64,000 nt of DNA from Paenibacillus silviterrae (GTDB taxonomy: Bacteria; Bacillota; Bacilli; Paenibacillales; NBRC-103111). The translations under genes were made by a program, and so were the position numbers. Positions within the stretch are counted from its first letter, which is position 1, and each line of letters starts with the position of its first letter. The stretch lies in the NCBI RefSeq assembly GCF_030167925.1, contig NZ_JASKUT010000001.1:1426001-1490000 (forward strand), in the 5' to 3' direction. The notes under the pieces are model-generated. The model was not told the origin of the DNA. It saw nothing but the letters and a program-made list of their open reading frames with translations, and did no database searches. Below are positions 27,901 to 51,220 of this stretch, in pieces.

Positions 27901-28972
27901 CCGTTCCTGTTATGTACCGGTTTTCCTCCATATTGACTCTGGGACTGACAGAACTGTTCTCAATACTTGCCGTAAATAGTTCAGTGGTCGTTTCGTTAGA
28001 TCCGTCCGAAGCCGTAAAGTAATATTCAATCGATTTGCTGCCCAAGATCTGCAAGCCGTCAAGAGTATACCGGTAAACGGATCCCGAACCCTGTCCCTTT
28101 AACTGAACCTTCGTAAATGCGGTCTGCCGGTCAGTTTTGTAGTGAAGGCTGACGGTTTTGAGCAAGGAGCTATCCTCCGCTTTTACAGCGAACTCAATAG
28201 GGGAAGCAGGCTCTGCCTTCGATCCGGTTTGATTAATCAGCAGTGGCGGCGTCGTATCCTCAGGCTGTACCTGTAAGGATGGCGGCACCTGTCCGGGATC
28301 GATTGTTCCCGGTGTCGCCCGGACGGTTCTGGAGCTGATTTTTACCATTTGGTTCGTGCCATCCTCCGGATATCGATATACTACACCCATATCGCTCTGG
28401 GTATCGTCCACCCCGAGGTTATAGGCTGCACTGACGAGTTCATGCCCCGTATTCGTTGCCACTACAATCCAACGGGTTCGACCGCTATGCATGCCTGCGC
28501 TTATTCGCACGACATCCCGGTTCAGCACCAGACTGCTTCCGTAATGCGCATTGAAGTCATCTATCGTAACGTTTGCATTATTTGCGTTTTTCAGCCAAAA
28601 TAAAAGCGTTTTCCCCGGCTCCAGGATGACGCTTTCCGGTTCATGGTTCCAAATCGCATCGCTTTCATTACCGTTCGGGTATCGGTAAATAATTTTATAA
28701 TCCTTAAGATCCATAGGACGGTTCGAATTATTGTAGATTTCTATGTATTCATAAGCATCATCAGAGCCGCTGCTTCCTTGTATGTCTACGGAATCAGGTA
28801 GTATCTCAGTAATCAATACAGGTGGCGGACTAAGTCCGGAATCTGTACCGGCGGCAATGATACGATCTTCTGCGTAAACGGAAATGCCGCCTACCGGAAC
28901 GATTGAGGCTAATAAAAGAGAAAGGGTTAAAAAACCGGCACGGCATCGATGCCATCTTTGGCCACAAAACAT
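24917..28972 (-). CDS. Secreted multidomain metallophosphoesterase with lamin-tail and FIMAH-type domains
   Basis: A 1351-residue exported protein with a signal peptide (AGFLTLSLLLASIVPVGG, cleavage near VYA-ED). Domains in order: a lamin-tail domain about 50-170 (VLITEILPDSVD...EYIEIYNNS), Ig-like and FlgD-like repeats to about 820, and a calcineurin-like phosphoesterase at about 829-1100. The metal-site motifs of the last are PDTQ, HTGDLVEN, AGNHD, GFHDY and SGHYTGS. Then come Fn3-like modules (about 1104-1265) and a C-terminal FIMAH-like helical domain. It probably hydrolyses phosphate esters at the cell surface. It has a strong GGAGGGG site and stands alone; the link with its neighbours is unclear. 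Confidence 0.87.
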   Translation of the reverse strand: MFCGQRWHRCRAGFLTLSLLLASIVPVGGISVYAEDRIIAAGTDSGLSPPPVLITEILPDSVDIQGSSGSDDAYEYIEIYNNSNRPMDLKDYKIIYRYPNGNESDAIWNHEPESVILEPGKTLLFWLKNANNANVTIDDFNAHYGSSLVLNRDVVRISAGMHSGRTRWIVVATNTGHELVSAAYNLGVDDTQSDMGVVYRYPEDGTNQMVKISSRTVRATPGTIDPGQVPPSLQVQPEDTTPPLLINQTGSKAEPASPIEFAVKAEDSSLLKTVSLHYKTDRQTAFTKVQLKGQGSGSVYRYTLDGLQILGSKSIEYYFTASDGSNETTTELFTASIENSSVSPRVNMEENRYITGTEWVKGTDSRSEPDSLKITIDGNEMAPVKRGLEHKAYFAFDANGADRNYKNVVKHNDTVVHQFDYGVSGYKTVMVPVDGIVEGANRISLVAGSFTAPYDGSSKENLDDFDVRNVRLLLADGTMLRDPKYSNPSTVLDMGDNGRFLPVVDFTFTISKEQARSAVYKWDTTAFSDGPHRVTVTASDRLTAEATVRVDNHGPFIQTSLIEGKSYKGSILINGTITDEVSEVRSSEITLDGQKISLPHQTSSAELTPGSHTLTITAYDQRGNKSEKTVRFSSVEEHPYRPEAVSPANGAVDVKLNTALQVKVQDPTEDPLQVSFFRGYRYGADVQEHVTVFSGASDTEPPVGLYIPGEHRLTEEELTSVKLADGSFLTNDSTRQFPYLRYEVKLEDHYSQEDRVQLAWKGRSLPGRKVTLYAWNYSKSRWIALDSRTSISEESFVLKGTVTAQEYVKDRTVQFIVQDQLDNSGSEKYSFVWLPDTQFYSQTFSHIFDSQVNWIRDHAEENQVKYVFHTGDLVENFHQDYQWANADRAMKVLEDAGIPYGVIAGNHDVSPTNDYTMYSKYFGASRFEDKPFYGESYKDNRGHYDLISAGGVDYILAYMGWGIGPEEVQWLNKVLSEHSDRKAILGFHDYVLANGQISATGQMLFHQVVKPNPNVFMVISGHYTGSALNTVKVDDNGDGTPERTVYQILSDYQELGEGGDGYMKLFTFDPGTGTVEVKTYSPYKDDYNYYDPVQYPNKDEFTLSVDLTPQVKRVATDSIEVKVYSKELIGNPQSVSSGQSAEVRWNDLDPKQTYFWYAAVQDGFGGQSISDLWSFTTANLLPAPQNLRAAEVTDTSIALAWDPIRIGGNRTVTYDVYMNGMPSATVAGSVYMLTNLEPDTEYTLFTIANDQTGAYSEPSPALTIQTKVNLSVIHFWTNRFVASGELRGPLAVQLSNQLEQAEHQRIKGDLDKTRKHVEDFLRHLNNEAMSEHISLSAISTLNSKGNALLKQ

Positions 28973-30495: not shown

Positions 30496-31090
30496 TCAGC
30501 TTGAGCGACGGAAATCGGCGTGCTTATTCCCTGTCAGCTTGACCAACAGCAAATTGTCACCTTCACGCAATTCCTGACGTAAACGGTGTACTCGTTACTT
30601 CGGTCAGTGGGAGAATATCTCTCGGCTTCAGCGTTACCACGCTTCATACCGACACTTCCCAGGACAGTAACATTAGGCCAGTCTACATCGAATACTCGGA
30701 ATCGATCCACCCGTCATACTAGTTGTTAGCGTCGATCCGCTCAGCGAACACATGCGGGGGAGCCCGCGAATCCTGTCCCGGATGTCTAATCGTTCGCCCT
30801 TCGCGCCCGTGAACGTAGCAGAACGTGGATACTCCGAAATGCTGCACCAGCACAGTCAGCGTGTTTCTCCGGCCCGGCTTGATCAAATGGCCGAATTCGT
30901 AAGTTTCGTAAGACTGCTCGAACGGCCAGCATCTTGCCGATCTCAGCTTTACCTTCTCCAGGCTCAAGCCTTTATCCTGAGCGTCGAACGATCGATGGAA
31001 GCACTTCCACTCGTTCCGCGGGCTTTCTTCCTCACCACTCCAAATCCACTGCGCATCCCAATTTAGAGGGGTAATCTGAGGCATTTTCAT
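30496..31090 (-). pseudogene. Decayed remnant of a large rhamnosidase-like glycosidase gene
   Basis: The first 123 codons (31090 to 30719) begin with an intact ribosome site and read WDAQWIWSGEEESPRNEWKC, then jump from KLRSARC to WPFEQSYETYEFGHLIKPG and NTLTVLVQHFGVSTF. In rhamnosidase-like enzymes a stretch of 20 or so residues, including the vNG loop, should lie at that jump. Further on, short pieces in shifted frames recall the same protein type: FDVDWPNVTVLGSVGMKRG near 30650-30700, and LREGDNLLLVKLTGNKHADF ending at a stop at 30496. A gene of perhaps 2-3 kb has therefore collapsed to 0.6 kb by internal deletions. The exact family is inferred. Confidence 0.65.
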
Positions 31091-33481: not shown

Positions 33482-34828
33482 TTATTTATTTCCTTCCAAT
33501 ATAATCATCGCCTCGATATCCTTGTTGGCTTTCTCCTCCGCCTCCCGGAGCGCCGTATTGACATCCTTCTGCGCGGTAATGCTGTTACGGAACGCGCCTG
33601 CAAGCGGAGCAACCACCTTTAGATTGTATTTGGTGTATGGGGTCGGCGTCGCATATTGCTGCGGTATGAGTCCGGCCTTGTTCTTGCCGTTCAGGTCGGC
33701 CGTCGCCGTTCCGAAGGCGTCCCGAATCTCCTTGCTCTTAAGCACCGAAGGGCTGCCAATCCTACTCCGCTCCAGCTGCACCGCATCCGATGTCAGTTCC
33801 GCCATCGCCAGGAATGCCTCGTCACGGTGTTTGCTGTTTCTGGATAAAGCATAATAAACGACGTCCGGCTGCGGACCTGCACCCGGCTTTTCCTTAAAGA
33901 TCGGGAAGGACACGACATCCCAATTTACGTCCAGCTTCTGGAAATCTTTCGGGTAGTCGGAATTCATCTGTACGAGCATGGCGAGCGATTTCTCCTTAAA
34001 AAACATGTCGTATTGTTTAGCGTCCTGCGTCTGCGCAGAGGTAGGCTGCCAGCCTGTAATACTGTAAAAACGGGAGAAATTGTCGAAGTACGATTTCCAG
34101 GTATCATTGTTGACTGTCGATTTTCGCGTCGCCGGATCGAGCAAAGGATGGGACAGCTGGTTAAGCTGCAGCAGCTGGCCCAAGGTACGGATGCCGAAGC
34201 CTCGGTATTGTACTCCTCCCTCCTCCCGCGTAAGCTGCTTCGCCGTATCGTAAATCTCATCCCACGTCATCCCATCCTTCAAATATGGAACGCCAAAGCG
34301 ATCGAAAATATCCTTGTTATAGAACAGCCCCAAGGTGTTAGTCCTAAACGGCAGGCCTGGCAGTTTCCCCTCCCCCACCTTACGCAGCCCATCGATGATG
34401 GACGGCTCGAAGCGGTTAAGATCAAAATTGTACTTTTTGACCAAGTCGGTAATGTCTCCATCCAGCTCGACCTCTTTGATCTGCAGAAAGCTGGGATTAA
34501 TCGTTATGAACACATCGATATGCTCGCCCGCCGCAATGAGATCCTGCAATGTCGATCCTTTTGTATTCTGGATAAACTTGAAAGAAAAGTTCGGGTATTT
34601 CTTCTGGACGAGGCTCCCGTGCTCCTTCATAAACTGATCCATGTTTGAATCGGCATACATGTAGTAGAACGTCAGCTCCACCGGTTCCTTCGTTACCTCC
34701 GGCGGCTTCTCCTGAGCTTTGGGCTGCTGCTCCTGCGGCTTCGAGGCACTCGGCGCACTGCTGCATGCCACAGTCATTGCCGTTGCCAAGCTAAGAGCCA
34801 TACAAGCTTTTGCCATGTTCCGTTTCAT
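33482..34828 (-). CDS. Extracellular solute-binding lipoprotein (paralog of the fused protein upstream)
   Basis: A 448-residue binding protein: MKRNMAKACMALSLATAMTVACSS with lipobox TVAC near residue 22, then a Pro/Gln/Lys linker. The mature sequence EPVELTFYYMYADSNMDQF corresponds block by block to the C-terminal half of the metallo-beta-lactamase fusion at 37169. Shared landmarks include GKLPGLPFRTNTLGLFYNKDIFD and an end ALREAEEKANKDI. The start at 34828 follows GGGGGAGG; the longer reading to 34891 is unlikely. It ends the co-directional row and has no permeases next to it. The substrate is presumably the sugar handled by the enzymes of the row. Confidence 0.87.
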   Translation of the reverse strand: MKRNMAKACMALSLATAMTVACSSAPSASKPQEQQPKAQEKPPEVTKEPVELTFYYMYADSNMDQFMKEHGSLVQKKYPNFSFKFIQNTKGSTLQDLIAAGEHIDVFITINPSFLQIKEVELDGDITDLVKKYNFDLNRFEPSIIDGLRKVGEGKLPGLPFRTNTLGLFYNKDIFDRFGVPYLKDGMTWDEIYDTAKQLTREEGGVQYRGFGIRTLGQLLQLNQLSHPLLDPATRKSTVNNDTWKSYFDNFSRFYSITGWQPTSAQTQDAKQYDMFFKEKSLAMLVQMNSDYPKDFQKLDVNWDVVSFPIFKEKPGAGPQPDVVYYALSRNSKHRDEAFLAMAELTSDAVQLERSRIGSPSVLKSKEIRDAFGTATADLNGKNKAGLIPQQYATPTPYTKYNLKVVAPLAGAFRNSITAQKDVNTALREAEEKANKDIEAMIILEGNK

Positions 34829-34948
34829 AGGCCTCCCCCTTATTCCTGCGGGAACCTCGAGTGTCAAGCGGCGGGACTGATCATATGCCATACCGGGTGC
34901 GGGACTCTCCTCCGCTTTCTCCGAAGTTCCGGCGTTATGGTGCTTCGA

Positions 34949-35803
34949 CTAAACCATTTGGTTGATGAGGGCTCCGAGACCCTCGATTTCTACAGTAACG
35001 ATATCCCCGCGCTGTAACCATCGCTGTTCACATTCCGGGGCGCCTAGCACGACACCCTCCGGGGTGCCTGTTAAGATCACATCTCCGGGTTTCAACGTCA
35101 TATACGTTGAGACGTAGCTGATAATCTCAGATGTGCTAAAGATCATATCGGCTGTGTTAGAGCTTTGCCGTATCTCCCCGTTGACCTTGCTGGTAATGGA
35201 CAGACGGTCGGGGTCGCCGACCTCATCCGAAGTGACAAGGTAAGGCCCCAATGGGCAAAAGCCGTCACACGATTTACCGAGAAGCCATTGAGTGGATCTG
35301 AACTGTAGGTCCCTTGCGGAAAGGTCATTCGCATTACAGTATCCCAATACATAATCCAAAGCGTCATCAGCGGAAACATTCCGGGCTTCCACTCCGATGA
35401 CCATAGCCAGCTCCGCCTCGTAATCCAGCTGACGGACATCCTGCCCTATCGCGACAGGCTGTAGATGCCCGTTTAACGCGTTGTTATATTTGCTGAAAAG
35501 CACCGGCGTCTCGGGAATCGGCATCTTCGACTCGACGGCATGCTTCCGGTAGTTCAATCCGACACAAATGATTTTACCCGGAGTCGGAACGCAGGGGCCG
35601 AAGCGGAGCTCCTTCTCGTCCAGCCATACCCGACTGCGTCCCTCAGCCTCCAGCAACAGCGCCTCAAGCCGAAGCAAGCCCTCCCTACCATGTTTCATAA
35701 GCGCTTCAATGGAACAATAATACTCAGATAGCGGAAGGATTCCTCGATCTGATTTAACCCCCATAACCAACCGGTCGTTACTCCAAAAGTGAACCAGCTT
35801 CAA
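34949..35803 (-). CDS. Fumarylacetoacetate hydrolase (FAH) superfamily enzyme
   Basis: A 284-residue FAH-fold protein. The metal site and catalytic residues are visible: DYEAELAMVIG (two Glu), NANDLSARD (Asp), LGKSCDGFCPLGP (Lys), and the closing TGTPEGVVLGAP loop. The superfamily includes acylpyruvate hydrolases, 2,4-diketo-3-deoxy-rhamnonate or -fuconate hydrolases, and 2-keto-3-deoxy-pentonate dehydratases (XylX). Beside an SDR and a sugar-acid dehydratase, one of the last two roles is the best guess. It starts with TTG after AAAGGGTG. Confidence 0.88.
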   Translation of the reverse strand: MKLVHFWSNDRLVMGVKSDRGILPLSEYYCSIEALMKHGREGLLRLEALLLEAEGRSRVWLDEKELRFGPCVPTPGKIICVGLNYRKHAVESKMPIPETPVLFSKYNNALNGHLQPVAIGQDVRQLDYEAELAMVIGVEARNVSADDALDYVLGYCNANDLSARDLQFRSTQWLLGKSCDGFCPLGPYLVTSDEVGDPDRLSITSKVNGEIRQSSNTADMIFSTSEIISYVSTYMTLKPGDVILTGTPEGVVLGAPECEQRWLQRGDIVTVEIEGLGALINQMV

Positions 35804-35833: not shown

Positions 35834-37147
35834 CTAAAGCTCTGCAAGAACGGCGTCAACCGCTGCAATGGTTTCATCCACATCGTTCTCCGTATGCACG
35901 GCAGATACGTACCAGAGACCGTTCGGGCGTACGAGGACGCCATGGTACAGCATAAGCTCGGCGAACCGGGTATACTTGGCAGCATCTCTTTGATTGAAGG
36001 CTTCAAAGTCCTCTACCTCAGTCTCATCGGTAAACATCATATGGAATACAGGCCCGGCATGATTGATGAGTCCCGGTATTCCGTGCGTTTGCAGTGCGGA
36101 TCGAATGCCTGTAACCAATCGGTCTGCCATGGTCTCCATCTGCGTGTAGGCGGCCCCGTCGTCCTTGGCTAATGCCTCGATGGTGGCTAGAGCAGCTCCC
36201 ACCGCCGCCCCATTGCCGTTCAGTGTTCCAAGATGGCTGACGGTTCCGTCTTCAATCAGCTTCATGATGTCCCGGCGCCCGCAAACGGCACTGATGGCCA
36301 TCCCTCCTCCCAACGCCTTGCCGATCGTAACGAGATCCGGCTGCAGGCCGAACTTCCCATGAGCGCCGCTCAACCCGAGGCGAAAGCCTGTGATCACCTC
36401 GTCGAGGATCATGACGATGCCAAGCTCTGCAGTTAAGCTGCGCATCTGCTCTAGGTAGCCCGGTTTCGGCACAATGCAGCCGGAGTTGCACATAATCGGC
36501 TCGGAAATGACGGCGGCGATCTCCTTCCTATGTGCCCGAAGCGTCTGCTCTAATAGCTGCGGATCGTTCCAGGGCAGCAAAATAATATCCCCAAGGCTGT
36601 TCTCGCTCTGCCCTCCCGTACCCGGCACAATCCGCTCGTTCGAGCTGGAGGAAGCTTCGGAGGACCGTCGCATATCCGCGCTGGGGAAGGAAGTAAAGAT
36701 GGCATCTGACCAGCCGTGGTAATGTCCGTGAAAGCGCACAATCTTAGCCCGCCCCGTATGCGCGCGGGCGAGCCTAAGCGCCAGCATGACCGCCTCCGTG
36801 CCGGAGCCGCTGAACGCCGTCTGGTCGGCACAGGGCAGCAGCTCGGTCAAGCGACGCGCCAGCCGGATTTCCCCCACATGCTGCAGACCGAAGGTCGCGC
36901 TCTTCCGCAAGGCCTCCAGCACCCCCTCCGTGAGGGAAGGGTGTGCATGACCCAGAATCATCGGACCGTAACTAAGCAAGTAATCAATATACTCGTTGCC
37001 GTCAATGTCCCATATCCGGGGGCCGCTGCCATACTCCGCGTACAAGGGAGTCGGCTTCATGGCCGATCGCAGGGAGCTGGCCACACCTCCGGCCAAATTG
37101 TGCTGTGCTTCTTGGTATTTCTGCTTTGATAGCTCGAAGGAAGCCAT
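35834..37147 (-). CDS. Class III aminotransferase, glutamate-1-semialdehyde aminomutase-like
   Basis: A 437-residue PLP enzyme. Motifs: FSGSGTEAVMLALRLARA (cofactor phosphate), FHGHYHGWSD, the Asp in ILDEVITGFRLG, and the PLP Lys at 277 in TIGKALGGGM. It resembles glutamate-1-semialdehyde 2,1-aminomutase (HemL), but sits in a sugar-catabolic row rather than a heme operon. A catabolic or amino-sugar transaminase role is therefore more likely than heme synthesis. GGAGAG precedes the ATG. It lies 21 bases after the fusion-protein gene. Confidence 0.85.
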   Translation of the reverse strand: MASFELSKQKYQEAQHNLAGGVASSLRSAMKPTPLYAEYGSGPRIWDIDGNEYIDYLLSYGPMILGHAHPSLTEGVLEALRKSATFGLQHVGEIRLARRLTELLPCADQTAFSGSGTEAVMLALRLARAHTGRAKIVRFHGHYHGWSDAIFTSFPSADMRRSSEASSSSNERIVPGTGGQSENSLGDIILLPWNDPQLLEQTLRAHRKEIAAVISEPIMCNSGCIVPKPGYLEQMRSLTAELGIVMILDEVITGFRLGLSGAHGKFGLQPDLVTIGKALGGGMAISAVCGRRDIMKLIEDGTVSHLGTLNGNGAAVGAALATIEALAKDDGAAYTQMETMADRLVTGIRSALQTHGIPGLINHAGPVFHMMFTDETEVEDFEAFNQRDAAKYTRFAELMLYHGVLVRPNGLWYVSAVHTENDVDETIAAVDAVLAEL

Positions 37148-37168: not shown

Positions 37169-39349
37169 TTATTTCGTGGCGGCCGTGATATCCGCGTTCG
37201 CCTTGTCTTCCGCGGCACGCAGGGCATCCTCAATCGTTGCTGTACGAAGGATAACCTTCGTGAAGGCTTCGGACAACGGGGCCGTTACCTTCGGCGTATT
37301 TTTCGTGTAAGTCGTTGGCGCGGCGTTCTGCTCCGGCAGCATATAGCGGGCGTTGCGCGTTTTCAAATCCGTATTCTCAGACCCGTAGGTCGCTCGGATC
37401 GACAGATCCTTAAGCACCGTCGGTACCCCCGATTTGCCAAGCCGCGCCTGCACCTCATCCGAGGCCATATGGGCAATGGCGGCAAACGCCGCATTCGGGT
37501 TTTTGCTGTTCGCCGAGATGGCATAGTATACGGGATCCGGCTGCGAGCCAACGCCCGGCAAACCTTCAAAGGCAGGAAACGGGGCCACATCCCAGTTCAA
37601 GCCCGGGGCACTGGCCGCTCTCGGATAGTCCGAGTTCATGGCAATCAACATGCCGAGTGTCCGCTGCTTTTGGAATAAGTCAATCTGTGCTGCAGATCCC
37701 AGGAGCGATGAGGAGGCGTTATACCCGGGTAATTGGAAAAAAGGCGTCATCTGTGCGAAATATTGCTTCCATGCTTCCGTATGGATCACGGCACGACCCG
37801 ACTGAGCATCCAGCAGCGGCAGAGATTGCTGGTTCAGCTGCAGCAGGCTGCCTATGGTTCGTGTCCCGAGTCCTCTGTATTGAACGCCGTTCTCATTTCG
37901 CGTCAGCTGGCAGGCCGCCTCCATGACTTCGTTCCAGGTCCAGCCCTCCCGAGGATAAGGTACGCCGAACTTGTCGAACAGCGACTTATTGTAAAACAGA
38001 GCAAGGGAATTCACGCGGAACGGGAGTCCGGGCAGCTTGCCTTCCCCCATCGTCTTTAACGATTCGATAACCGACGGATTGAACCGGCTCAAGTCATAGT
38101 GATGACGATCGATCAAGTCCGTAATGTCTCGACCAAGACCCTTATCCTTGATGGCGGCCATGCCGGAGTTGTTTGTAATAAACACATCAATCGAGTCGTC
38201 GGAAGCCGCGATATCATCGAGTGTGGAGCCCGGCTCATTTTGCAAATACTTGAACGTAATATTCGGGTACTTCTCTTTCATATAATTGCCGTGGCCTGCC
38301 ATGAAGCTTTCAAAGGTCGTACCTGAAAACATGTAATAGAAAGTTAATCGGACAGGCTCGTCAGGGGAATCCTTCACCTGGTCCCAATCCGCGTCCTCCA
38401 GCTCAGGGAATACCTTCATCTCCGTCCCGTTGGACACCACGAGCAGGTTCCCGTTGTCCATGGTCGTATACATCTCGATCCCTTTCTCCTTCAGCTGGTT
38501 CTGAAGCCGGATATTCGTAAAATGGTTGGAGCTCGCTACAATCACCTTAGGAGCTACGGTCTCTACCCACTCCATAGAGGTGGAGGTGACCATTCCATGA
38601 TGACCCGCATGGAGAAAATCAGCCTTCAAGCGGCTTCCGTAATGGCCGATCAGCTCCCGCTCTTTTTCCATGTAGGTGTCTGCAGGGAAAAGAAAGGATT
38701 GATTCTTATAGGTCAGCTTCAGCACCATGGAGTGGTTGTTGACCGGAATGTGGTCGGGGTTCGGCAGTGAATTCGGCAGTGCGCCCTTCGGCGGATTGAT
38801 GACCTCAACCCGTACATCCGCGCCTAACTGAAATTCGAACCCATCCTCCACGAAGGTGTCCGGAATCTGTTTGTCCTGAATAATTTTTACAAAATTCTTA
38901 TAGTAATCCCCCCATTTATCGGGGAGCACGTTAAGCCGGTACACCTGCTTTACCTGCTTCTTGGCCGCAACCTCGGTAAAGCCGCCTACATGGTCGATGT
39001 GAGGGTGTGTATTCACGGCAGCGTCAATGACATTCACGTTGAGGGCATCCAGATAACGAAGCAGCTGATCCTTGGTTTCGGGGATTCCGGCGTCAATCAG
39101 CATCGTCTTGTTGTCGGGGGTTTGAATCAGAATGGCATCGCCTGACTGCTTGTTATGAACCAGGTTCAAATAACGGATTCTCAGCTGCCCGTTATATTGA
39201 TTCGGGATGAACAAATTACGGCCTTGCAGCTCAGGTGCCGTTCCGGACGGCTGAGACGGTGCTGCGGAAAAAGCGGGCGCCGCCACCAGCATACAAACAA
39301 ACCACAGCATCAGGAGTGTAAATCGCTTGGTACCTGTTCTTCTTCTCAT
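37169..39349 (-). CDS. Secreted metallo-beta-lactamase (ComEC-type) / solute-binding protein fusion
   Basis: A 726-residue protein of unusual design. Residues 1-29 form a signal peptide (TLLMLWFVCMLVAAPAFS-A) without a lipobox. Residues 55-320 are a metallo-beta-lactamase domain of the ComEC C-terminal kind: THPHIDH at 114-120, NNHSMVL, the bridging Asp in FPADTYM (D224) and HAGHHG (248-252), so all metal ligands are present. Residues 333-726 are a complete family 1 solute-binding protein, closely matching the mature part of the lipoprotein at 33482. The joint falls just where that protein's linker ends. The start at 39349 has GAGGTGTG upstream. It may bind a ligand and hydrolyse it outside the cell, or act as a sensor; no function is established. 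Confidence 0.88.
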   Translation of the reverse strand: MRRRTGTKRFTLLMLWFVCMLVAAPAFSAAPSQPSGTAPELQGRNLFIPNQYNGQLRIRYLNLVHNKQSGDAILIQTPDNKTMLIDAGIPETKDQLLRYLDALNVNVIDAAVNTHPHIDHVGGFTEVAAKKQVKQVYRLNVLPDKWGDYYKNFVKIIQDKQIPDTFVEDGFEFQLGADVRVEVINPPKGALPNSLPNPDHIPVNNHSMVLKLTYKNQSFLFPADTYMEKERELIGHYGSRLKADFLHAGHHGMVTSTSMEWVETVAPKVIVASSNHFTNIRLQNQLKEKGIEMYTTMDNGNLLVVSNGTEMKVFPELEDADWDQVKDSPDEPVRLTFYYMFSGTTFESFMAGHGNYMKEKYPNITFKYLQNEPGSTLDDIAASDDSIDVFITNNSGMAAIKDKGLGRDITDLIDRHHYDLSRFNPSVIESLKTMGEGKLPGLPFRVNSLALFYNKSLFDKFGVPYPREGWTWNEVMEAACQLTRNENGVQYRGLGTRTIGSLLQLNQQSLPLLDAQSGRAVIHTEAWKQYFAQMTPFFQLPGYNASSSLLGSAAQIDLFQKQRTLGMLIAMNSDYPRAASAPGLNWDVAPFPAFEGLPGVGSQPDPVYYAISANSKNPNAAFAAIAHMASDEVQARLGKSGVPTVLKDLSIRATYGSENTDLKTRNARYMLPEQNAAPTTYTKNTPKVTAPLSEAFTKVILRTATIEDALRAAEDKANADITAATK

Positions 39350-39398: not shown

Positions 39399-40160
39399 CT
39401 AGTGCATCATCCAGCCGCCGTCCACGTTGAGTGTTTGTCCCGAAATAAAATCGCTGTCCCGGGACGCGAGAAATACGAACGCTCCCTCGACATCCGCTGC
39501 CGTTTCCCGCCTGGAGAAGCACTGCGCCTTAGCAAGAAACTCGCCGCTTTCGCGGATGGTCGCTTGGCTCACCTTCTCGTATTCCGTCTCCGTCAGCACG
39601 GCTCCCGGCGTAATGCAATTCACAGTGATGTTGTGCTCGCCTACCTCGCGCGCCAACGCACGGGTGAAGCCGATGATCGCCCCTTTGGAGGTGACATAAT
39701 GAAGGAACTGCTTCTGGCCAGTGAAGAAGGTGACCGAAGACACGTTAATGATTTTGCCGTATCCCTGGCGTTTCATGTAGGGAAATACGGCTTTGGCGCA
39801 CAGAAATTGAGAGCGAACGTTCACACCCATCAGAGCGTCCCATTCCTCCGCCGTAATTTCGTACCAGGTCCTGCGCGGATCCATAGCGGCATTATTGACC
39901 AATATATCCACGGTACCGAAGCGGTCCGCTGCCGCCTTAACCATCGCCTCCACTTCGGCTTCCTTGGATACATCCGCTCCGAAGGCGAAGGCCGTTCCGC
40001 CGGATGCCGTGATCTCCTCTACTACTTGGTCAGCCAGCTCCGGATGGGAGCGGTAGTTCACAACGACACTGGCGCCTTCTTGCGCGTAACGCTTCGCTAC
40101 CGCTGCGCCGATTGACCTAGAAGAGCCGGTGATAATAGCTGTTTTCCCTTGCAGTTTCAT
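39399..40160 (-). CDS. SDR family oxidoreductase, probable sugar dehydrogenase
   Basis: A 253-residue classical SDR with TGSSRSIG at 11-18, NNAA at 89-92, the catalytic triad Ser141/142, Tyr155 and Lys159 (HYVTSKG), and the C-terminal LNVDGG. It probably oxidises a sugar or reduces a keto acid with NAD(P). Its ATG overlaps the stop of the upstream dehydratase by ATGA, so translation is coupled and the two are likely successive steps. GGGGGAA precedes the ATG. In this setting an aldose dehydrogenase producing an aldono-lactone is a good guess, but not proven. Confidence 0.87.
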   Translation of the reverse strand: MKLQGKTAIITGSSRSIGAAVAKRYAQEGASVVVNYRSHPELADQVVEEITASGGTAFAFGADVSKEAEVEAMVKAAADRFGTVDILVNNAAMDPRRTWYEITAEEWDALMGVNVRSQFLCAKAVFPYMKRQGYGKIINVSSVTFFTGQKQFLHYVTSKGAIIGFTRALAREVGEHNITVNCITPGAVLTETEYEKVSQATIRESGEFLAKAQCFSRRETAADVEGAFVFLASRDSDFISGQTLNVDGGWMMH

Positions 40161-41944
40161 TCGTTGCTTCCCCCTGATCTGCAAGATCCGCCCTGAAGAG
40201 CGGGTCTTGCCAGTTTGGTATACTGTCCGAGAATCCCTGAGTGACGGAACGACGGCGGAATCCATGCCGAGAGCCGATCGGAGATCACTTGAAAGATCTC
40301 CTCCGGTGTGCGTTCTTCCCCGCGGACACCTACAATATCAATCGAGCGGTTCGGAATATCGATGCGGATGAGGTCACCGTCTTCTACAATGGCAATGGGC
40401 CCCCCTTCGATCGCCTCCGGTCCGAGATAGCCGACACAGGGTCCGCGGGTAGCGCCGGAAAACCTGCCGTCAGTAATGAGTGAGGTAGTGTGCGAGAGGA
40501 CAGGGTCCGAGGCGATGAGCTCCGACATGAAGAACATTTCCGGCATGCCTACCGCTTTCGGTCCTTGATAACGGATGATCACGACGTCACCCGATTGAAT
40601 ACGCTTCTCCTTCAAGGCCTCCACCGCATCGCGTTCGCTATTGAACACCCGCGCCGGGCCTTGATGAAGCTGCATCGAATCCACCACGGCGAATTTCTTG
40701 ATGGTTGCTCCCTCCGGTGCTAGATTGCCGTGCAGCACCGCGAGCGAGCCTTCGGTCTTCAGAGGCTTTTTCATGGAATAGATCAAGTCACGACGGTTCA
40801 GCTTATAGTTGGCGAGGAACATTTCGGCGAAATTCCTCATTTCATTGCGGCGGTACTGCTCCAAATTCTCGCGCAGGGTACGACCCGTCACCGTCATGAC
40901 CTCCAGGTGGAGCAAGTCGCGCAGCTCCTCCATCACAGCCGGAACCCCGCCCGCGTACCAGAACAGCTCCGTCGGATAATGGCCGGCGGTCTTCGTGTCG
41001 ACTAGAACCGGTACGGTCCGATGTAGCTCGTCGAAGCGGGAAGCCTCGAGTTCAATGCCTGCTTCCCGCGCAATGGCGATTAAGTGCATTACCGCGTTGA
41101 GCGATCCGCCGATGGCCGAGTGCACCATGATGGCGTTCTCGAACGCCTCGCGGGTGAGAATATCCGACGGGCGAATGTTCTTCTCCGCCAACACCATGAT
41201 CTGCTGCCCGGCTGCACGGGAGGCTCTTCGAATCTCCGCGTTGACCGCGGGGATGAGCGCCGTCCAAGGCAGCACCAGTCCTAGCGCTTCCGCCATTACC
41301 TGCATGGTGGCGGCGGTGCCCATATACTGGCAGGCGCCGCAGGTCGGGCAGCAGGCGCGCTGGAAGGCGAGGAATTCCTCCTTGGTCATCCGGTTCTTCT
41401 CGACTTCCACGCTCATATGCCATAGCTCTTCGTTGCTTCGCAAACAAGGACCTGCGCTCATCGCGCCGCCCGGTACGTGGATCGCCGGAATGTTGAGCCG
41501 GGCTATCGCCATCAGGTGAGCCGGAACGGCCTTATCTCCTGCGGAGCTAAGCACCATCGCGTCGAAGGGAGTGGCCAAGGCATGAATTTCCACCATGTTC
41601 GCAATCATGTCCCTCGAAGGAAGAGAGTAATGCATGCCGCCGTGCGCTTGCGCTACACCGTCACAGATATCCGTCGTGGTGTAAAGCGCGGGCTTACCGC
41701 CGCTTTGGAATACCCCCTTCTCGATCTCGGAAACGAGCTCCCCCAGATGATAGGAGCTCGGGTGGCTTGCGCCATGAGTGCTTTCCACCAATACCTGCAC
41801 CTTGTCAAGATCCTCCACCGTCCAATCCATTGACATGCGAAGTGCATCGCCCTCAAAGCTGATTTTGCGCACCTTCTGGCTGCTTCTCTCTGCATTTCCG
41901 CTTGGAGCTGAAGAGCCATCAGCCTCCCGGTCATGACAATCCAT
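40157..41944 (-). CDS. IlvD/Edd family dehydratase, YjhG/YagF-like sugar-acid dehydratase
   Basis: A 595-residue Fe-S dehydratase. The pattern CDGVAQAHGGMHYSLPSRD (C94) and CCPTCGACQYMGTAATM (C202/C205) holds cluster cysteines, and later GRFSGATRGPCVGYLGPEA matches the family. The usual first cluster Cys (PCN in dihydroxyacid dehydratases) is replaced by HPSSYHL (S63/S64). The stretch around AEALGLVLPWTALIP recalls the YjhG/YagF xylonate dehydratases rather than IlvD. It would remove water from an aldonate to give a 2-keto-3-deoxy acid. The 5' end overlaps the upstream gene by 14 bases and the 3' end overlaps the SDR by 4. Confidence 0.85.
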   Translation of the reverse strand: MDCHDREADGSSAPSGNAERSSQKVRKISFEGDALRMSMDWTVEDLDKVQVLVESTHGASHPSSYHLGELVSEIEKGVFQSGGKPALYTTTDICDGVAQAHGGMHYSLPSRDMIANMVEIHALATPFDAMVLSSAGDKAVPAHLMAIARLNIPAIHVPGGAMSAGPCLRSNEELWHMSVEVEKNRMTKEEFLAFQRACCPTCGACQYMGTAATMQVMAEALGLVLPWTALIPAVNAEIRRASRAAGQQIMVLAEKNIRPSDILTREAFENAIMVHSAIGGSLNAVMHLIAIAREAGIELEASRFDELHRTVPVLVDTKTAGHYPTELFWYAGGVPAVMEELRDLLHLEVMTVTGRTLRENLEQYRRNEMRNFAEMFLANYKLNRRDLIYSMKKPLKTEGSLAVLHGNLAPEGATIKKFAVVDSMQLHQGPARVFNSERDAVEALKEKRIQSGDVVIIRYQGPKAVGMPEMFFMSELIASDPVLSHTTSLITDGRFSGATRGPCVGYLGPEAIEGGPIAIVEDGDLIRIDIPNRSIDIVGVRGEERTPEEIFQVISDRLSAWIPPSFRHSGILGQYTKLARPALQGGSCRSGGSNE

Positions 41945-43502
41945 CGATATCGTCCTCTCTTTGTGTGCTTTTGGTTCCGTACAGCGGATGTTCCTTCCAA
42001 TCGGTTACTTCATCCAGCGGATAGAACGGACGCACCAGCTTCCGGAATGCCAAAGCCTTCAGGTTGGCCTGGCTGTAGCCCGGAGTATCGAGCATATAAA
42101 TGTGCGGTGTCATTTTACCGTATTCCGCCCGAAATTGGTTGGCGGACTTGACCTGCACAAGCTCCGCCTCGGAGGGCTCAAGACCCATGCTCCGGTACAT
42201 CGCAGGGTCTCCCGAGAAGGTGGCACGCTCTGTGATCAGCACGGAAATCCACCCGATGTCAAACACGACACACCGTCCCATAAAGGCCTCCGTGTTTTTG
42301 GCATAGCCGCCCTTCAGATAAAAACGCCCGTCTCCGATTCGTCTCACAAGTCCACTCACCTCAATAGGCCTGAACAGTGGTTGGGGAAGGCTCTCATGCA
42401 AGGAGCCACCGAGCGTGAGTACCGTTTCCTGCCCTACGCCTGCGGTTATGGCTTTATGTACCGCCGAGGCGTCTACCAAGGTTAACAGACAACGGTGCGT
42501 CAGCTGAACCTGCTGCTCCAGCAGCTCCTTCAGCACCGCATTGCTGTCTCCTAGCGAGCCGGCACTGGGGCTGTCCGCCGAATCGGAGATGACAATGGGG
42601 CCTTCGTCACGTTGATGCTCTCTTAACTTACTTATCATCTGACGAACGGTAAACAGCTCAATACCGAACGCCTCCCGCTTCTCCCAGAAGAGACCGGCAA
42701 GCCGTTGTGCCTCCCTAACGGCCTCCTGCTCCTTCCCGGCATGGCCGACGACCACAACGGAGTTGCCCATTTCATCGATATCCAGCCACGGCTGTACGGG
42801 AAAGAGGGAGGTGACCAGAACATCTCCCTTCTCCTCTCCGGCTCTCGCCTCTTCCCACAGCTCAGCGAAGGGGCCATGGGTCGATTGGCTGTTCTCTGCA
42901 GGCACGATCATCGGAAGCTTTACCAGCTTCACTACCGGCTGCACCTCCCCGCGGATGGCGGCAAACAGCAACGCTGCCGAACGGCTGCCGGTCTCGGCAA
43001 AATCAATATGCGGATAGGTACGGAAGCCGACGAGGCCGTTCACCTGCCGAACCATACGCTCCGTCAGGTTGGCGTGCAGGTCCAACGAAATGACGAGAGG
43101 CAGATCGGGACCTACACAATCCCTTATGACTGATAGTAGCTCCCCTTCCGTGTCGTCACAGTCCTCCGCGACCATGGCTCCGTGCATGGCGAAATAGACC
43201 CCATCGCAGCCTCCCGCCTGTTGAAGGGCAGCCTGGAGCAGTGTTCGTAATTCAATTTTCAGTCCACGGAAGGAGTCTGCTGCGAGCATCCCTGAGGAAA
43301 CTGCGTTCGCTGATAATACAGGGACGATCTCGACCCCCTCCTCCTCCGCCTTGCGCATAAATCCCCAGAGCTCGTTCTGCGTTTGAATCGAACGTACCTC
43401 TTCCCCCGTAACCCAATGATGCCGGTAAAAATCCTGCAATCCGCTTCGTGACGGACTGAACGTATTGGTCTCTTGAATCAGGCTTCCTATGAGTACCTTC
43501 AT
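41931..43502 (-). CDS. M81 family metallopeptidase-like protein (MlrC type)
   Basis: A 523-residue protein of the MlrC family: KVLIGSLIQETNTFSP start, HGAMVAEDCDDTEGELL, DLHANLTERMV (metal-binding Asp/His pair) and SDSADSPSAGSLGD. The founding member degrades linearised microcystin peptides, but homologs are common in soil bacteria next to small-molecule transporters, and their real substrates are mostly unknown. It lies 15 bases after the GH39-like gene and overlaps the dehydratase. AAGGTGAC precedes the ATG. No signal peptide, so it acts in the cytoplasm. Confidence 0.85.
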   Translation of the reverse strand: MKVLIGSLIQETNTFSPSRSGLQDFYRHHWVTGEEVRSIQTQNELWGFMRKAEEEGVEIVPVLSANAVSSGMLAADSFRGLKIELRTLLQAALQQAGGCDGVYFAMHGAMVAEDCDDTEGELLSVIRDCVGPDLPLVISLDLHANLTERMVRQVNGLVGFRTYPHIDFAETGSRSAALLFAAIRGEVQPVVKLVKLPMIVPAENSQSTHGPFAELWEEARAGEEKGDVLVTSLFPVQPWLDIDEMGNSVVVVGHAGKEQEAVREAQRLAGLFWEKREAFGIELFTVRQMISKLREHQRDEGPIVISDSADSPSAGSLGDSNAVLKELLEQQVQLTHRCLLTLVDASAVHKAITAGVGQETVLTLGGSLHESLPQPLFRPIEVSGLVRRIGDGRFYLKGGYAKNTEAFMGRCVVFDIGWISVLITERATFSGDPAMYRSMGLEPSEAELVQVKSANQFRAEYGKMTPHIYMLDTPGYSQANLKALAFRKLVRPFYPLDEVTDWKEHPLYGTKSTQREDDIDGLS

Positions 43503-43517: not shown

Positions 43518-44843
43518 TTACGACAGAACCGGCGTCCATTCCAGCAGCGTTACGCTGTAGGAAGGCAGGAACCATTCGAAGACCTCCGTGTCCACCAAGC
43601 GCTCCTCCCGCAGATCCAGCCGATGATGATCGTCAACCGAATAGATACGAACCGAGTAAGGTCCCGGTGCTCCCGTCAATTGTATGCTGTGGAGACGGGC
43701 GCTGCCGCCGTAGCTTGTAATGAGTGCGGCTCCACCGCCGGCTTCGTTTAGACCCGCAATACAACTGACATGGGAGGCCTTTTCCCCAACGACCGCCCTT
43801 ACTCTTGCCGGGTGCTTAGTCATGCGCTGAAATGCCTTGAACGAATAATACGTCTTCTGAGGGACGCCGTGGTAATCGAAAAGTCCACAGAATAAAGCGG
43901 TCGGTTGGCCGTCGTAATAATTTGCCTCATCCACGGGGCAATCCTGAAGCAGGGTCAGCACTGTCGCTACGAAAGCCGCGCCGTGTGCGTTCTTCTGTCG
44001 GTCGAAGTTGCTTTTGCGTACATACTCGTTGCCTCGATGCCATATCTTCGTAAAATCAGTTTCCAGATAATTCCACTCATTCAGGTGACTTTCCGTCTCC
44101 ATGTACCCATGCCGGTCCAGCTCGGCCCGCACGTGATAGGCATGCTCTACAATCTTTCGCGGATCACCGGTGTACGTGTGCCAGGTGAAGAAATCAATAG
44201 GCAGGCAGCGCTCCCGGCAATAATCCAAAAAATTCGTGAGAAACGGCAGCGTCGGTCTAGCGGCGGCGTAGCCTCCAACCTTCAGAGCTGGGTTATAAGC
44301 CTTAATCGCCGTGACCGTGGCTTCATAAAGCTGAAATAGCTGAAGCGGGGTCCCCGACCACATCCGTTCCCCCAGGTCCGGCTCATTCCACACCTCCCAA
44401 TAATCAATGCCGTATTGGTAGCCGTCAGCCCAGCCCTCGTTGTAATGGCGGATGATATTGACGCAGATCTCAGCCCATTTTTGATAATCCTCAGGAGGAT
44501 GCACGTAATACTTCTTTCTCGTGTGTTCTATGCTTTCGCCAAGACGGTAAACGATCTTAGCCCCAGTATCCAGTATCGTCTTCAGGTACTCGTCCGTACG
44601 GGAGAAATCATAGTTCTCGGGGTCGGAGGGATCCTTGGTGAAATCTGGAAATATCGTATGAATATCGACCTCCCAGGCATGCGGCCAATTGGGATCATGG
44701 ATGCGCACTAACGGAATTTCCGCCTCTTGATAATAGTGAGATACGTCAATCAGCGACCCGTAACAAACCGGACCGTTGTTCACTCCGTGAAGCGCCTTCA
44801 ATGTACCTGCAGGTTGATCGAGCTGAATGTGAATGTCTCGCAT
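43518..44843 (-). CDS. Intracellular GH39-like glycoside hydrolase (beta-xylosidase type)
   Basis: A 441-residue TIM-barrel glycosidase of clan A. The acid/base E154 is in YWEVWNEPDL and the probable nucleophile E256 in ESHLNEWNYL. Further landmarks are VRIHDPN and WHTYTGDPRKI. A small beta domain closes the chain. GH39 members cleave xylose, iduronate or similar residues from oligosaccharides. No signal peptide is present, so it would act on imported oligomers. It is the first gene of the catabolic row, right after the two-component genes; GGGAGG precedes the ATG at 10 bases. Confidence 0.82.
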   Translation of the reverse strand: MRDIHIQLDQPAGTLKALHGVNNGPVCYGSLIDVSHYYQEAEIPLVRIHDPNWPHAWEVDIHTIFPDFTKDPSDPENYDFSRTDEYLKTILDTGAKIVYRLGESIEHTRKKYYVHPPEDYQKWAEICVNIIRHYNEGWADGYQYGIDYWEVWNEPDLGERMWSGTPLQLFQLYEATVTAIKAYNPALKVGGYAAARPTLPFLTNFLDYCRERCLPIDFFTWHTYTGDPRKIVEHAYHVRAELDRHGYMETESHLNEWNYLETDFTKIWHRGNEYVRKSNFDRQKNAHGAAFVATVLTLLQDCPVDEANYYDGQPTALFCGLFDYHGVPQKTYYSFKAFQRMTKHPARVRAVVGEKASHVSCIAGLNEAGGGAALITSYGGSARLHSIQLTGAPGPYSVRIYSVDDHHRLDLREERLVDTEVFEWFLPSYSVTLLEWTPVLS

Positions 44844-44870: not shown

Positions 44871-46502
44871 TTACTGCTGCCGAATGCTGTGATGATCGCG
44901 GTACTCCTGAGGAGTCATGCCGAATTCCTTTTTGAACACTTTGATAAAATACGGCGTATTCAAATAACCTACCGCAGTGGTTACCTCGTATATTTTCGAA
45001 TCGCTGCGCTTAAGAAGGTGAACGGCTTTCTCCATCCGAACCCTATGCAAGTACTCCTTGATGCCCTCGCCGGTTTCCAGCTTAAACACCTTGGATAAGT
45101 AGACAGGATGAAGGTTCACCTGATCGGCAAGAATATGGAGCGATACATCCTCTGACAAATGCTCATGGATGTAAGCCTTAACCTGCTCGATCACCATCGC
45201 TCGGGAGCTGTGCAGCTCCTCCGAATTCTCAATAGACAGCTTCCGGCATAGGCCTACCGCCCATTCCATCATCCGGTCGACGGAAAGCAGGGTGCCAAGC
45301 TCCGGGATGGATTCGGTTACTCCTATACGTTCAAGGAGCCGGCTAAGGGTTTCACCGTTGGCGTGTGCATACCGATAGCAGGCCGATACGAGGGTATGGT
45401 ACCACTCGGCCAGCAATTCGGGCGAATCATCCCAGTTCTCTTCGAGCTCCGCAGCAATGTTCTCGATCTTGCGAACGGCCTCCTCCCACATGCCTGCTTC
45501 GAACAAATGGCTGAGCGTCGGCGCTTCGTGAAGCGTTTTCAATGCAGCCACCCTTTGGCCGGAATCCGGATCGTTCACCGTCATAAGCAGGCCAACGTCT
45601 TTGCCGATTCTACGCCTCATCGTCTTGACAGCAGACTGATAACCGGCCTGCACAGCATCCGGGTAGTTTACCGGATTGCCGATCACAACGGATATGTCAC
45701 CCTTAAGATACCTCATCACATGATGCTGCAGCTGGCTGCACATACGCGGGAGCAGCTGGAGCCCTTCCTCCCATTCCGTATCCTCCTTCCCTTTCAGCGC
45801 AAGCACCAGGTATTCATGACGGTCCCGGCAGGTCCACAGCTCAAAATATGGACCCATCAATTCCTCGGCCATATTAAACACGGAAAATTCCATGAGCATT
45901 CGGTCTCTTTGGTTATAGCGTGAGAAGCGCCCTTCGAGCCGGATCAACACCAAACTTATCGAATCCTCCGGTAAAAACGAAATCCCAAGCAAGGCAAGGT
46001 GATCCTCCGCCTCCAGTCGTCCTTCCTCTACCAGCTTGCTTAGTACCTCCGATTTCAGCGCAGGCTGATGCTCTCTGAGGATCTCTACTGCGAGCTGGAA
46101 GGAAGCGGCCTCCGCTACGTCAGCCTCCAGCTGCTGAATGATTCTGCGGATCGACTCGATCAGCTGGCTATCGCTTACGGGCTTAAGTAAATAATCGGCC
46201 GCTCCGAGCTGCAAGGCGCGTTTGGCGTAATCGAACTCGGCATAACCGGTTAACAGAATGAACTGCGTGCTGCGCGTAAATTTGGCGCTCTGCTCCATCA
46301 GTTGGATACCGTCCATACCAGGCATACGAATATCCGTGATGACGATATCGACGACATGCTTCTTAATCAGCTCCAAGGCTTCACGGCCGGAATAGGCGCA
46401 CATGACCTCGGCGACACCAAGCTCCTGCCATGGGAGCGTATGCGCTATCGTATCGACTACCGACGGCTCATCATCCACAATCAACAGCTGATACATGCTC
46501 AT
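44871..46502 (-). CDS. Response regulator with AraC output domain (YesN-like)
   Basis: A 543-residue regulator. The receiver domain (3-120) has the acidic pocket DDE at 10-12, phospho-acceptor D57 in ITDIRMPG and the Lys in YLLKPVSD. A variable middle part follows, then a two-motif AraC HTH (LHILADQVNLHPVYLSKVFK and IYEVTTAVGYLNTPYFIKVFKK). The ATG at 46502 has GGGAGGGGG upstream and lies inside the end of the kinase gene, overlapping it by 32 bases. It presumably activates the permease genes at 50255 and/or the catabolic row below it. Confidence 0.92.
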   Translation of the reverse strand: MSMYQLLIVDDEPSVVDTIAHTLPWQELGVAEVMCAYSGREALELIKKHVVDIVITDIRMPGMDGIQLMEQSAKFTRSTQFILLTGYAEFDYAKRALQLGAADYLLKPVSDSQLIESIRRIIQQLEADVAEAASFQLAVEILREHQPALKSEVLSKLVEEGRLEAEDHLALLGISFLPEDSISLVLIRLEGRFSRYNQRDRMLMEFSVFNMAEELMGPYFELWTCRDRHEYLVLALKGKEDTEWEEGLQLLPRMCSQLQHHVMRYLKGDISVVIGNPVNYPDAVQAGYQSAVKTMRRRIGKDVGLLMTVNDPDSGQRVAALKTLHEAPTLSHLFEAGMWEEAVRKIENIAAELEENWDDSPELLAEWYHTLVSACYRYAHANGETLSRLLERIGVTESIPELGTLLSVDRMMEWAVGLCRKLSIENSEELHSSRAMVIEQVKAYIHEHLSEDVSLHILADQVNLHPVYLSKVFKLETGEGIKEYLHRVRMEKAVHLLKRSDSKIYEVTTAVGYLNTPYFIKVFKKEFGMTPQEYRDHHSIRQQ

Positions 46503-48279
46503 TCCCCCTCCCGGTTCGAAGAACGATGATTGATGTGATGCCACCCTCGGGATTACCGAAAAAGAACAGCCCGGTCCCTTCGCCGAACATCAGCTTCACC
46601 CGCTGATTCACATTCCATAAGCCAAAGCCGAAGCGTCCTTCCTCTTCGCTTTCTTTACGGTCCATGGCCAGCTGCATCGCGGCCAGCTTCTCAGGAGCCA
46701 TGCCGACTCCGTTATCCGTCACGATGAGACGGCAATCCCCGTTTTCGAGGAGCTCTCCTACAATCTTGACCATTCCCCTGCCCTCCTTAGGCTCGATGCC
46801 ATGAAGAATGGCATTTTCAACGAGCGGCTGGAGCATAAGTCGGGGGACCACAATGCCCCTCATGGCTTCCGGTACCTGAATATCGTAAGCAATGCGCTGC
46901 ATTCGCAGATTTTGAATTTCCAGGTAATTCGTAATCAGAGACAGCTCTTCCTCCAAGGTGGCCGACTGGTTGCCGAGCCGGGTCGTATATCGGAAGTAAT
47001 CGCCCAGATTCAGCGACATGGCCTCAATGGAGTCCACATCGCCCATACGTGCCATATTTTTAATAAAGAACAGGCAGTTATACAGAAAATGCGGATTGAT
47101 CTGCGACTGCAGCTGCTTCAGCACCGCTTCCTTGGATCGCAGCTTCTCGGCGACCACCTTCTCCAGCAAATCTTGAATTTGTGCTGTCATTTCATTGAAC
47201 CGAGTAATGAGGAAGGAGAATTCCGTCCCGCCGGTAAGCTCTACCCTAGAGGAATAATCCCCCTTCCTGATCCGCTGCACATGACGAACGAGCGCCCGTA
47301 TGGGTACCTGAACGTTGCGGTATAACACATACGATGCGATCACACTAAGCAGCAGCAGCAGCAGCGTCGACCCGTAAAACAAATTGCGCGTCTTCGTTAC
47401 AGGTGTCAGAATGTCTTCCAAGGGAACGGAGTCTACCAGGTACCAGCCCAGATTATTCAGCTTTAGATAGCTGACCAAAGACTTACGGCCGTTCATTTCC
47501 ACGGTAAAATGAAGCCTGGACTGTTCCAGGGTCTGCGAATGGAGATAGTTGATTAAGTCGGCTGAGCCTGCCTGATTCACCGTTCGGTTAGCGAGCACCC
47601 CATGCTTCGGATGATACAGGAACGGATCGCCCTGTCCGTCCGCCTTATATTGATCGAGCATATCCATCAAGTACGAGGGCGAGAAGGATGTTTTGACAAT
47701 CAGCTTCGCCGCCTCCGGATGCTCGAAGGCCGTAATAGGATGAACGGCAAACCATACGAATTGAGGGTTCACCGTTTTCCCGTTATCGACGGTCGCGTAG
47801 CTCCAGCCTCTGGCAATATCGTTAATGAGCAACTGCTCCTTCAGATCCACCGAGGCGCTGGAGGTTGAGATGATATCCTTCGTGAGCCTGGAATACACGG
47901 TGATGTCCGTCAGCCATCCGCTAATGCCGGACTGCAGGGTAATATTATCCAGAATCATTCGCAGCAGTCTTTCCCGTTCGTAGTACGACTCGGATTGGTG
48001 TCGGTATTCCAGCTCCCGAATCGCGGCATCATTGGACATGGCAATGGAATTCATCGAAAGCTGGTCGATTTTCTGCTCCATCTGCTGATGAAGAAACCGA
48101 AGCTTGTTCAGGTTGTTTTTTTTCATTTCGTCCTCAACGACATGAACGGCCGTTTGATTGGAAATGGCAAACAGAAGCACCACGGGGATCAATATGCTTA
48201 AAATCATGACTACCGTTTTGGTGAATATCGTTACCTTTCGATCCATTGCCGGCTCACCGTTCCCCTCATATGTTGACAT
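46471..48279 (-). CDS. Sensor histidine kinase (YesM-like)
   Basis: A 602-residue membrane kinase. Helix 1 is at about 22-41, an outer dCache-like sensor region 42-300, helix 2 at 302-321 and HAMP at 322-375. The His-kinase domain carries H397 (QINPHFLYN), and the ATPase domain has LMLQPLVENAILHG and VTDNGVGM. This architecture senses sugars or sugar-loaded binding proteins outside the cell. Its start is not certain: ATG 48279 has only GAAAGG at 13 bases; ATG 48246 (MDRKVTIF) is an alternative. It is located between its response regulator and a binding-lipoprotein gene. Confidence 0.9.
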   Translation of the reverse strand: MSTYEGNGEPAMDRKVTIFTKTVVMILSILIPVVLLFAISNQTAVHVVEDEMKKNNLNKLRFLHQQMEQKIDQLSMNSIAMSNDAAIRELEYRHQSESYYERERLLRMILDNITLQSGISGWLTDITVYSRLTKDIISTSSASVDLKEQLLINDIARGWSYATVDNGKTVNPQFVWFAVHPITAFEHPEAAKLIVKTSFSPSYLMDMLDQYKADGQGDPFLYHPKHGVLANRTVNQAGSADLINYLHSQTLEQSRLHFTVEMNGRKSLVSYLKLNNLGWYLVDSVPLEDILTPVTKTRNLFYGSTLLLLLLSVIASYVLYRNVQVPIRALVRHVQRIRKGDYSSRVELTGGTEFSFLITRFNEMTAQIQDLLEKVVAEKLRSKEAVLKQLQSQINPHFLYNCLFFIKNMARMGDVDSIEAMSLNLGDYFRYTTRLGNQSATLEEELSLITNYLEIQNLRMQRIAYDIQVPEAMRGIVVPRLMLQPLVENAILHGIEPKEGRGMVKIVGELLENGDCRLIVTDNGVGMAPEKLAAMQLAMDRKESEEEGRFGFGLWNVNQRVKLMFGEGTGLFFFGNPEGGITSIIVLRTGRGNEHVSAVDCG

Positions 48280-51208: not shown

Positions 51209-51220
51209 GGGGGGGTAAGC

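Follow-up and report, generated by a model that had tools for sequence, protein, structure and literature searches.

What is the function of a protein in which an enzyme domain and a complete sugar-binding protein share one reading frame? The question is raised by a gene of Paenibacillus silviterrae at positions 37169..39349 of a 64,000-nucleotide stretch of DNA (RefSeq assembly GCF_030167925.1, contig NZ_JASKUT010000001.1, positions 1,426,001 to 1,490,000), referred to here as the window; the gene and its operon lie on the reverse strand. The 726-amino-acid product joins a metallo-beta-lactamase (MBL) domain to a whole solute-binding protein (SBP). Our analysis of the sequence suggests a secreted two-domain hydrolase whose MBL half likely cuts a phosphodiester or a similar ester of a glycan likely held by the SBP half, a reading to which we assign a probability of approximately 0.42. 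The fusion of two genes in nature is itself evidence for joint action of their products.

One reading frame with two complete domains

The gene runs as a single frame from an ATG at 39349 to a stop at 37169 without an internal stop, and a ribosome-binding-like stretch (GAGGTG) lies directly 5' of the ATG. Pfam places Lactamase_B at residues 70-257 (63.6 bits; cut-off 22.7) and SBP_bac_1 at residues 352-635 (93.6 bits; cut-off 26; profile positions 16-307 of 307), and at an E value of 0.001 the protein matches MBL and SBP families only. The open frame and both scores bear out a preliminary description of this DNA, which had proposed that an MBL domain and a whole SBP are fused in one frame. The MBL domain comprises residues 45-322 (38384..39217) and the SBP half, defined by the Pfam and structure matches, residues 331-726 (37172..38359), with a linker of residues 323-330 (38360..38383) between them. 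The predicted full-length structure has a mean predicted local distance difference test (pLDDT) score of 87.8. Since its predicted template modelling (pTM) score is 0.62 and the linker is modelled with low confidence (pLDDT below 50 at residues 325-330), the mutual placement of the two halves is not fixed by the model. A scan for promoters and terminators gave no more signals than were found in shuffled sequences.

By eye, the N-terminus (residues 1-28; 39266..39349) resembles an ordinary signal peptide, consisting of a basic stretch, a hydrophobic helix (residues 7-22 in the model) and then AFSA. A lipobox pattern is missing from the window protein and from four of the five fusions examined. 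As had been proposed, the fusion likely kept a Sec signal and lost the lipobox, and the product is likely secreted without a lipid anchor. An assembly or frame error was considered and rejected given full-length relatives in other genomes at 51-75% identity; because such relatives exist beyond a 98% identical copy (P0002), the fusion is not a sequencing accident.

A rare architecture with a probable single origin

In the protein set, sequences that combine the two domains fall into five clusters: P0002, which is perhaps from the same species; P0003, a full-length relative at about 74-75% identity; P0153 from P. allorhizosphaerae (full-length, 51%); P0004 from P. mesophilus (full-length, 49%); and P0005, a partial fusion from a Paenibacillus metagenome-assembled genome. 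Both domains were present in 5 of 86 protein matches, the 7993 candidates sharing most words having been scored. Full-length matches to the fusion were found in 3 of 104 genomes of the family (best 10 candidates per genome scored) and in 3 of 392 genomes of the order (best 2). With the best 2 candidates per genome scored, 398 genomes of the phylum gave a match at 1e-60 in the own genome only, and 398 genomes of the class gave a full-length match in the own genome only, two others matching by SBP or MBL alone; the four genome samples overlap. Among genome contigs, one of 80 loci kept from at least 493 is a fusion; the P. allorhizosphaerae contig is present by its unfused copy. Within the searches run, we could reject the idea of a common architecture, in agreement with the novelty first attributed to it. 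The architecture is real, rare, lineage-specific and composed of two known families.

The second half was described as closely related to a separate lipoprotein gene 2.3 kb away. This companion SBP (33482..34891; assigned by Pfam, lipobox by eye), which ends 2.3 kb from the fusion, is 49% identical to fusion residues 327-723. Homology begins at about residue 332, by eye directly past the linker that follows the companion's lipobox, which is where the joint had been placed. In an MBL tree of 48 rows (5 fused domains, 40 unfused relatives and 3 outgroup sequences), the fused domains of the window, P0003, P0004, P0005 and the P. allorhizosphaerae locus (L045) form one group with support of 100/100. 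Four fused domains likewise form one group (100/99) among the 49 rows of an SBP tree, and their sister group holds the companion SBPs. Since fused MBLs and fused SBPs each form one group, we infer a single fusion event, with the SBP apparently duplicated before the species split.

Metal site and fold of the MBL half

A PF00753 score above the Pfam cut-off and a filled HxHxDH motif (H115-x-H117-x-D119-H120) place the MBL half in the metallo-beta-lactamase superfamily. The motif lies within THPHIDH at residues 114-120 (38990..39010), which is invariant in five aligned fusions. In alignment, D224 (38678..38680) corresponds to D700 of ComEC, and H250-H251-G252 (38594..38602) is followed by Met where ComEC has Ser728. 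Among solved structures, ComEC, Pce and RNase J lie closest to the predicted domain, whose best structural match is the ComEC nuclease domain. The motifs and this match uphold the earlier assignment of a ComEC-type domain with complete metal ligands. Six of the ComEC nuclease positions are filled, with His in place of Asp600. Membership of ComEC/Rec2 itself is not indicated, as PF03772 (Competence) has no match and TIGR00361 scores 61.5 bits (cut-off 190.05); nor is the protein a class B beta-lactamase by the NCBIfam core model (36.5 bits; cut-off 100). A precomputed label on some matches pointed to Apyc1 (PF23023), a candidate ruled out at 14.9 versus 50 bits, and the Apyc1 structure 7u2r ranks 21 in Foldseek for the MBL half. 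Fold and ligands are consistent with two-metal phosphodiesterase chemistry.

The best structural match also raises the alternative that the MBL half is a ComEC-like secreted nuclease and that the protein scavenges nucleic acid. In ComEC, loss of Ser728 lowers nuclease activity, as reported in PMC12455585; in five fusions this position is Met or Leu. Given in addition a partner domain that is a sugar-type SBP, and an operon in which no nucleotide-uptake family was matched, we consider a nuclease improbable.

Unfused relatives and their neighbours

The genomes searched hold 42 unfused members of the MBL group (E up to 1e-55); the group occurs in 27 of the 392 order genomes, and some members are annotated 'ComEC/Rec2 family competence protein'. 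A lipobox pattern is present in 31 of the 40 with a recovered frame, versus one of five fusions. An SBP or an ATP-binding cassette (ABC) permease directly adjoins 22 of the 42 MBLs on the same strand, versus 12 of 130 control genes (p 1.6e-8; related loci are not independent). Control genes encoded 250-450 amino acids, were neither SBP nor permease, and came from 40 random regions of contigs with such MBLs. The direct-neighbour test was chosen after the result of a test with a 5-kb radius. It gave 15 of 29 loci (p 1e-6) in a subset of the 42 that was hand-picked to drop near-duplicates and from which the distinct L193, L195 and L207 were also dropped. Of 40 mapped unfused MBLs, 16 adjoin an SBP and two permeases. 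In the SBP tree, those SBPs that adjoin MBLs are spread over separate branches; because of this, the pairing of MBL and SBP seems to have arisen or persisted several times. At one locus taken as P. mesophilus (G035; L192:4055-6515), the gene calls put the end of the MBL gene 1 bp before the SBP gene, with the two ordered as in the fusion, and both genes have lipobox-like starts.

Direct MBL neighbours showed no enrichment of general phosphoesterase families in Pfam scans that covered 89 neighbouring proteins at 29 MBL loci and 84 at 29 control loci and listed the 25 commonest families. Glycerol-3-phosphate antiterminators account for 2 of the 89. The unfused MBL group probably has several substrates. 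HupE/UreJ_2 accounts for 6 of the 89 (L171, L181 and L051 are among these loci by eye). Some MBLs share an operon with an SBP, two permeases and GDPD; at L055, L060, L180 and L208 the MBL lies near such genes, GDPD being named by eye, and at L175 and L182 a PhnP-like gene, the MBL, an SBP and a PHP-type gene follow in a row (PhnP and PHP named by eye). Neighbour profiles were built here from window and locus proteins; counts for GDPD, PhnP, PHP and HAD are exploratory because their profiles came partly from loci of the type under test, a bias from which the Pfam scans are free. Elsewhere in the window, 24917-28972 encodes a 1351-amino-acid protein with LTD, Metallophos, fn3 and FIMAH domains, a 47% paralogue of which (L052:9438-13505, same genome) lies directly after an unfused MBL gene.

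The SBP half and its permease-poor relatives

The model of the SBP half matches sugar SBPs, with 4rk2 on top, and has the complete sugar-SBP fold. At positions invariant in five companion-type SBPs, 107 of 209 residues are identical in all four fusions, and 21 of 30 aromatics are kept; because of this retention the SBP half does not look decayed. It sits in a set of 36 SBPs of its own genome, itself included, defined by similarity (E up to 1e-40) and not by tree. Among the matches listed, a permease lies within 2 kb of 1 of these 36 versus 54 of 110 other SBP_bac_1 proteins, and within 5 kb of 6 of 36 versus 79 of 110. These counts scored the best 150 of 328 permease candidates, so that permeases were missed in both groups, and the best 150 of 200 SBP candidates; each distance runs from the lower coordinate of one match to that of the other, and two permeases of the window were added by hand.

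In 20 regions that hold related SBPs (L251-L270), permeases account for 4 of 91 neighbouring proteins. The same 91 include 17 AraC-type domains, three His_kinase and three GH95 matches, and single neighbours with GH88, GH42 and rhamnogalacturonan lyase. The neighbours of these permease-poor SBPs thus include AraC/YesMN-type regulators and plant-polysaccharide enzymes.

These counts bear on an alternative in which the protein is a transport receptor with a processing enzyme: the SBP half would hand the MBL product to an ABC permease encoded elsewhere, so that capture, trimming and import are coupled. Its complete fold suits this role, as do the 16 unfused MBLs that adjoin an SBP and two permeases, and two permease genes lie in the window at 50255-52099. 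Domain search found no ABC permease among the genes of the fusion operon, however, and the 19.9 kb surrounding each of two further fusions, those of P. allorhizosphaerae (L045) and P. mesophilus (L046), likewise gave no permease match; the one permease match within 2 kb among 36 related SBPs also argues against it. A lipobox is normally needed by Gram-positive transport receptors. The lipid anchor expected of a Gram-positive ABC importer receptor is absent from the window protein by pattern, which occurs in one of five fusions. We regard a transport receptor as rather unlikely.

The operon and the other fusion loci

The fusion is one of ten consecutive genes that point the same way and are separated by 57 bp or less. 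They encode, in order, a YesM-type histidine kinase (46471..48279), a YesN-type response regulator (44871..46544), a GH39-like glycoside hydrolase without a signal by eye (43518..44843), an MlrC/M81 family protein (41931..43502), an IlvD/EDD-family dehydratase (40157..41944), an SDR dehydrogenase 49 bp upstream of the fusion (39399..40265; true start probably internal, by eye), the fusion, a class III aminotransferase 21 bp downstream of it (35834..37147), an FAH-family enzyme (34949..35803) and the companion SBP. MlrC, IlvD/EDD, aminotransferase and FAH assignments rest on Pfam. The best PDB sequence match of the GH39-like enzyme is the glucosidase 5z3k, followed by GH39 beta-xylosidases, and the NCBIfam model nearest to the FAH-family enzyme, 2,4-didehydro-3-deoxy-L-rhamnonate hydrolase, scores below its cut-off. 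Beyond the kinase, 48334-50064 encodes a 576-amino-acid protein, by eye a lipoprotein SBP, without a Pfam match at E 0.001, beside the two opposite-strand permease genes. At 30719-31090 a short truncated frame, possibly a remnant, resembles by eye the beginning of a rhamnosidase-type gene.

At L045, the fusion lies beside relatives of IlvD (75%), SDR (83%), MlrC (57%), the GH39-like enzyme (59%) and the SBP (73%), together with a protein with a sub-threshold PHP match and an AraC-type protein, the only regulator relative seen there. L046 holds the fusion, a GH39-like gene (55%) and an SBP (63%), and none of the other window-operon genes. The FAH, SDR and dehydratase neighbours travel with the fusion in part: SDR and dehydratase recur at one of the two loci and FAH at neither, and the class III aminotransferase is also at neither. 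The GH39-like gene and a companion-type SBP are the only operon genes found in all three fusion loci, which makes them the constant partners and indicates that the kinase pair does not travel with the fusion. A further locus (L047, G033) has the SBP and GH39-like genes without a fusion.

The adjacent YesM- and YesN-type genes, of the same direction, speak for the suggested secreted sensor, in which the SBP half would bind a sugar and the protein would signal via the kinase. Since relatives of the kinase and of the full-length regulator had no match in the 19.9 kb around each of the fusions at L045 and L046, this suggestion is not supported. A sensor would also not need a conserved metal centre, and we consider it very improbable.

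The earlier text also named lactonase activity; the MBL half would then hydrolyse lactones or carboxyl esters, its substrate being a sugar-acid lactone or an acylated glycoside. The operon does have sugar-acid-type enzymes (SDR, IlvD/EDD and FAH), and GDSL esterases adjoin some unfused MBLs (3 of 89 neighbours). The SDR, however, has no signal by eye and would form any lactone inside the cell, and SDR, IlvD and FAH are missing from the P. mesophilus locus. Given that the MBL half is closest to ComEC, Pce and RNase J among solved structures, lactone hydrolysis is less likely than phosphodiester hydrolysis, and we judge it unlikely.

Proposed function

Phosphodiester hydrolysis appears to be the most likely chemistry of the MBL half, given its fold, its ligands and the association of some relatives with GDPD. 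In the secreted hydrolase that we favour, an MBL of a kind often encoded beside an SBP, and usually a likely lipoprotein, is joined to an SBP from the permease-poor group, and the anchor signal is missing in four of five fusions. Because the operon lacks a permease and few lie near related SBPs, the SBP half may serve as a recognition module instead of a permease-feeding receptor. Uptake of the product would then fall to the companion SBP and an unlinked permease, and the operon's GH39-like and sugar-acid-type enzymes would break it down in the cytoplasm.

Several observations weigh against this proposal. MBL folds carry many chemistries, and Met or Leu at the Ser728 position is shared by five fusions. 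The fusion operon gave no match to a phosphoesterase family. GDPD lies within 5 kb of 4 of 40 scored MBL loci versus none of 40 controls, a weak excess (p 0.06; 0.12 when L180, which contributed to the profile, is left out), and neither GDPD nor Metallophos is among the 25 commonest neighbour families, Metallophos occurring in 2 of 84 control neighbours. The MBL neighbours are mixed and include pectate-lyase-like proteins, GDSL esterases, sulfatases and HupE/UreJ. An SBP or permease lies within 5 kb at 26 of 40 loci, the 42 less L195 and L200, versus 17 of 40 controls (p 0.04), a weak result because SBPs abound in these genomes. The P. mesophilus fusion, with its lipobox-like AAAC, may be anchored, and a lipobox pattern is also missing from 9 of 40 unfused MBLs. 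Finally, the two permease genes, on the other strand 2-4 kb past the kinase, could serve the operon.

The fusion suggests that an MBL lipoprotein group partly annotated as ComEC works with sugar-binding proteins and not in DNA uptake. A second point of interest is that 35 of the 36 related SBPs have no permease within 2 kb among the matches listed; the role of these SBPs becomes testable through one protein.

Comparison with known systems

In open-access literature searched with narrow phrases, titles and the beginnings of abstracts named no MBL-SBP fusion and no permease-less SBP set; a paper on TAXI-GltS concerns another kind of SBP architecture. The fold closest to the MBL half is the ComEC nuclease domain of Moorella glycerini (PDB 9ic4), from which the fusion differs by having no channel domain, His117 for Asp600, Met253 for Ser728 and an attached SBP. 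With Pce/CbpE, the teichoic acid phosphorylcholine esterase of S. pneumoniae (PDB 1wra, 2bib), it has a Pce-type MBL fold in common at 20% identity; the binding module of Pce consists of choline-binding repeats, whereas the fusion has an SBP and no such repeats were matched in it. The unfused Paenibacillus MBL lipoproteins belong to the same MBL group (36-47% identity) and are paired with SBP/ABC genes, but are encoded separately and carry a lipobox pattern in 31 of 40. CUT1-type sugar-binding proteins serve ABC permeases. Their complete fold (SBP_bac_1; 4rk2, 5f7v) is shared by the SBP half, which differs from them in being joined to an enzyme and encoded in an operon without a permease. It is possible, if doubtful, that this SBP has left transport, a large set of SBPs in these bacteria that have no permease next to them being glycan-recognition modules at the surface or secreted, one of which was joined to a phosphodiesterase to aim the enzyme. 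Such a use would resemble that of carbohydrate-binding modules, which aim glycoside hydrolases.
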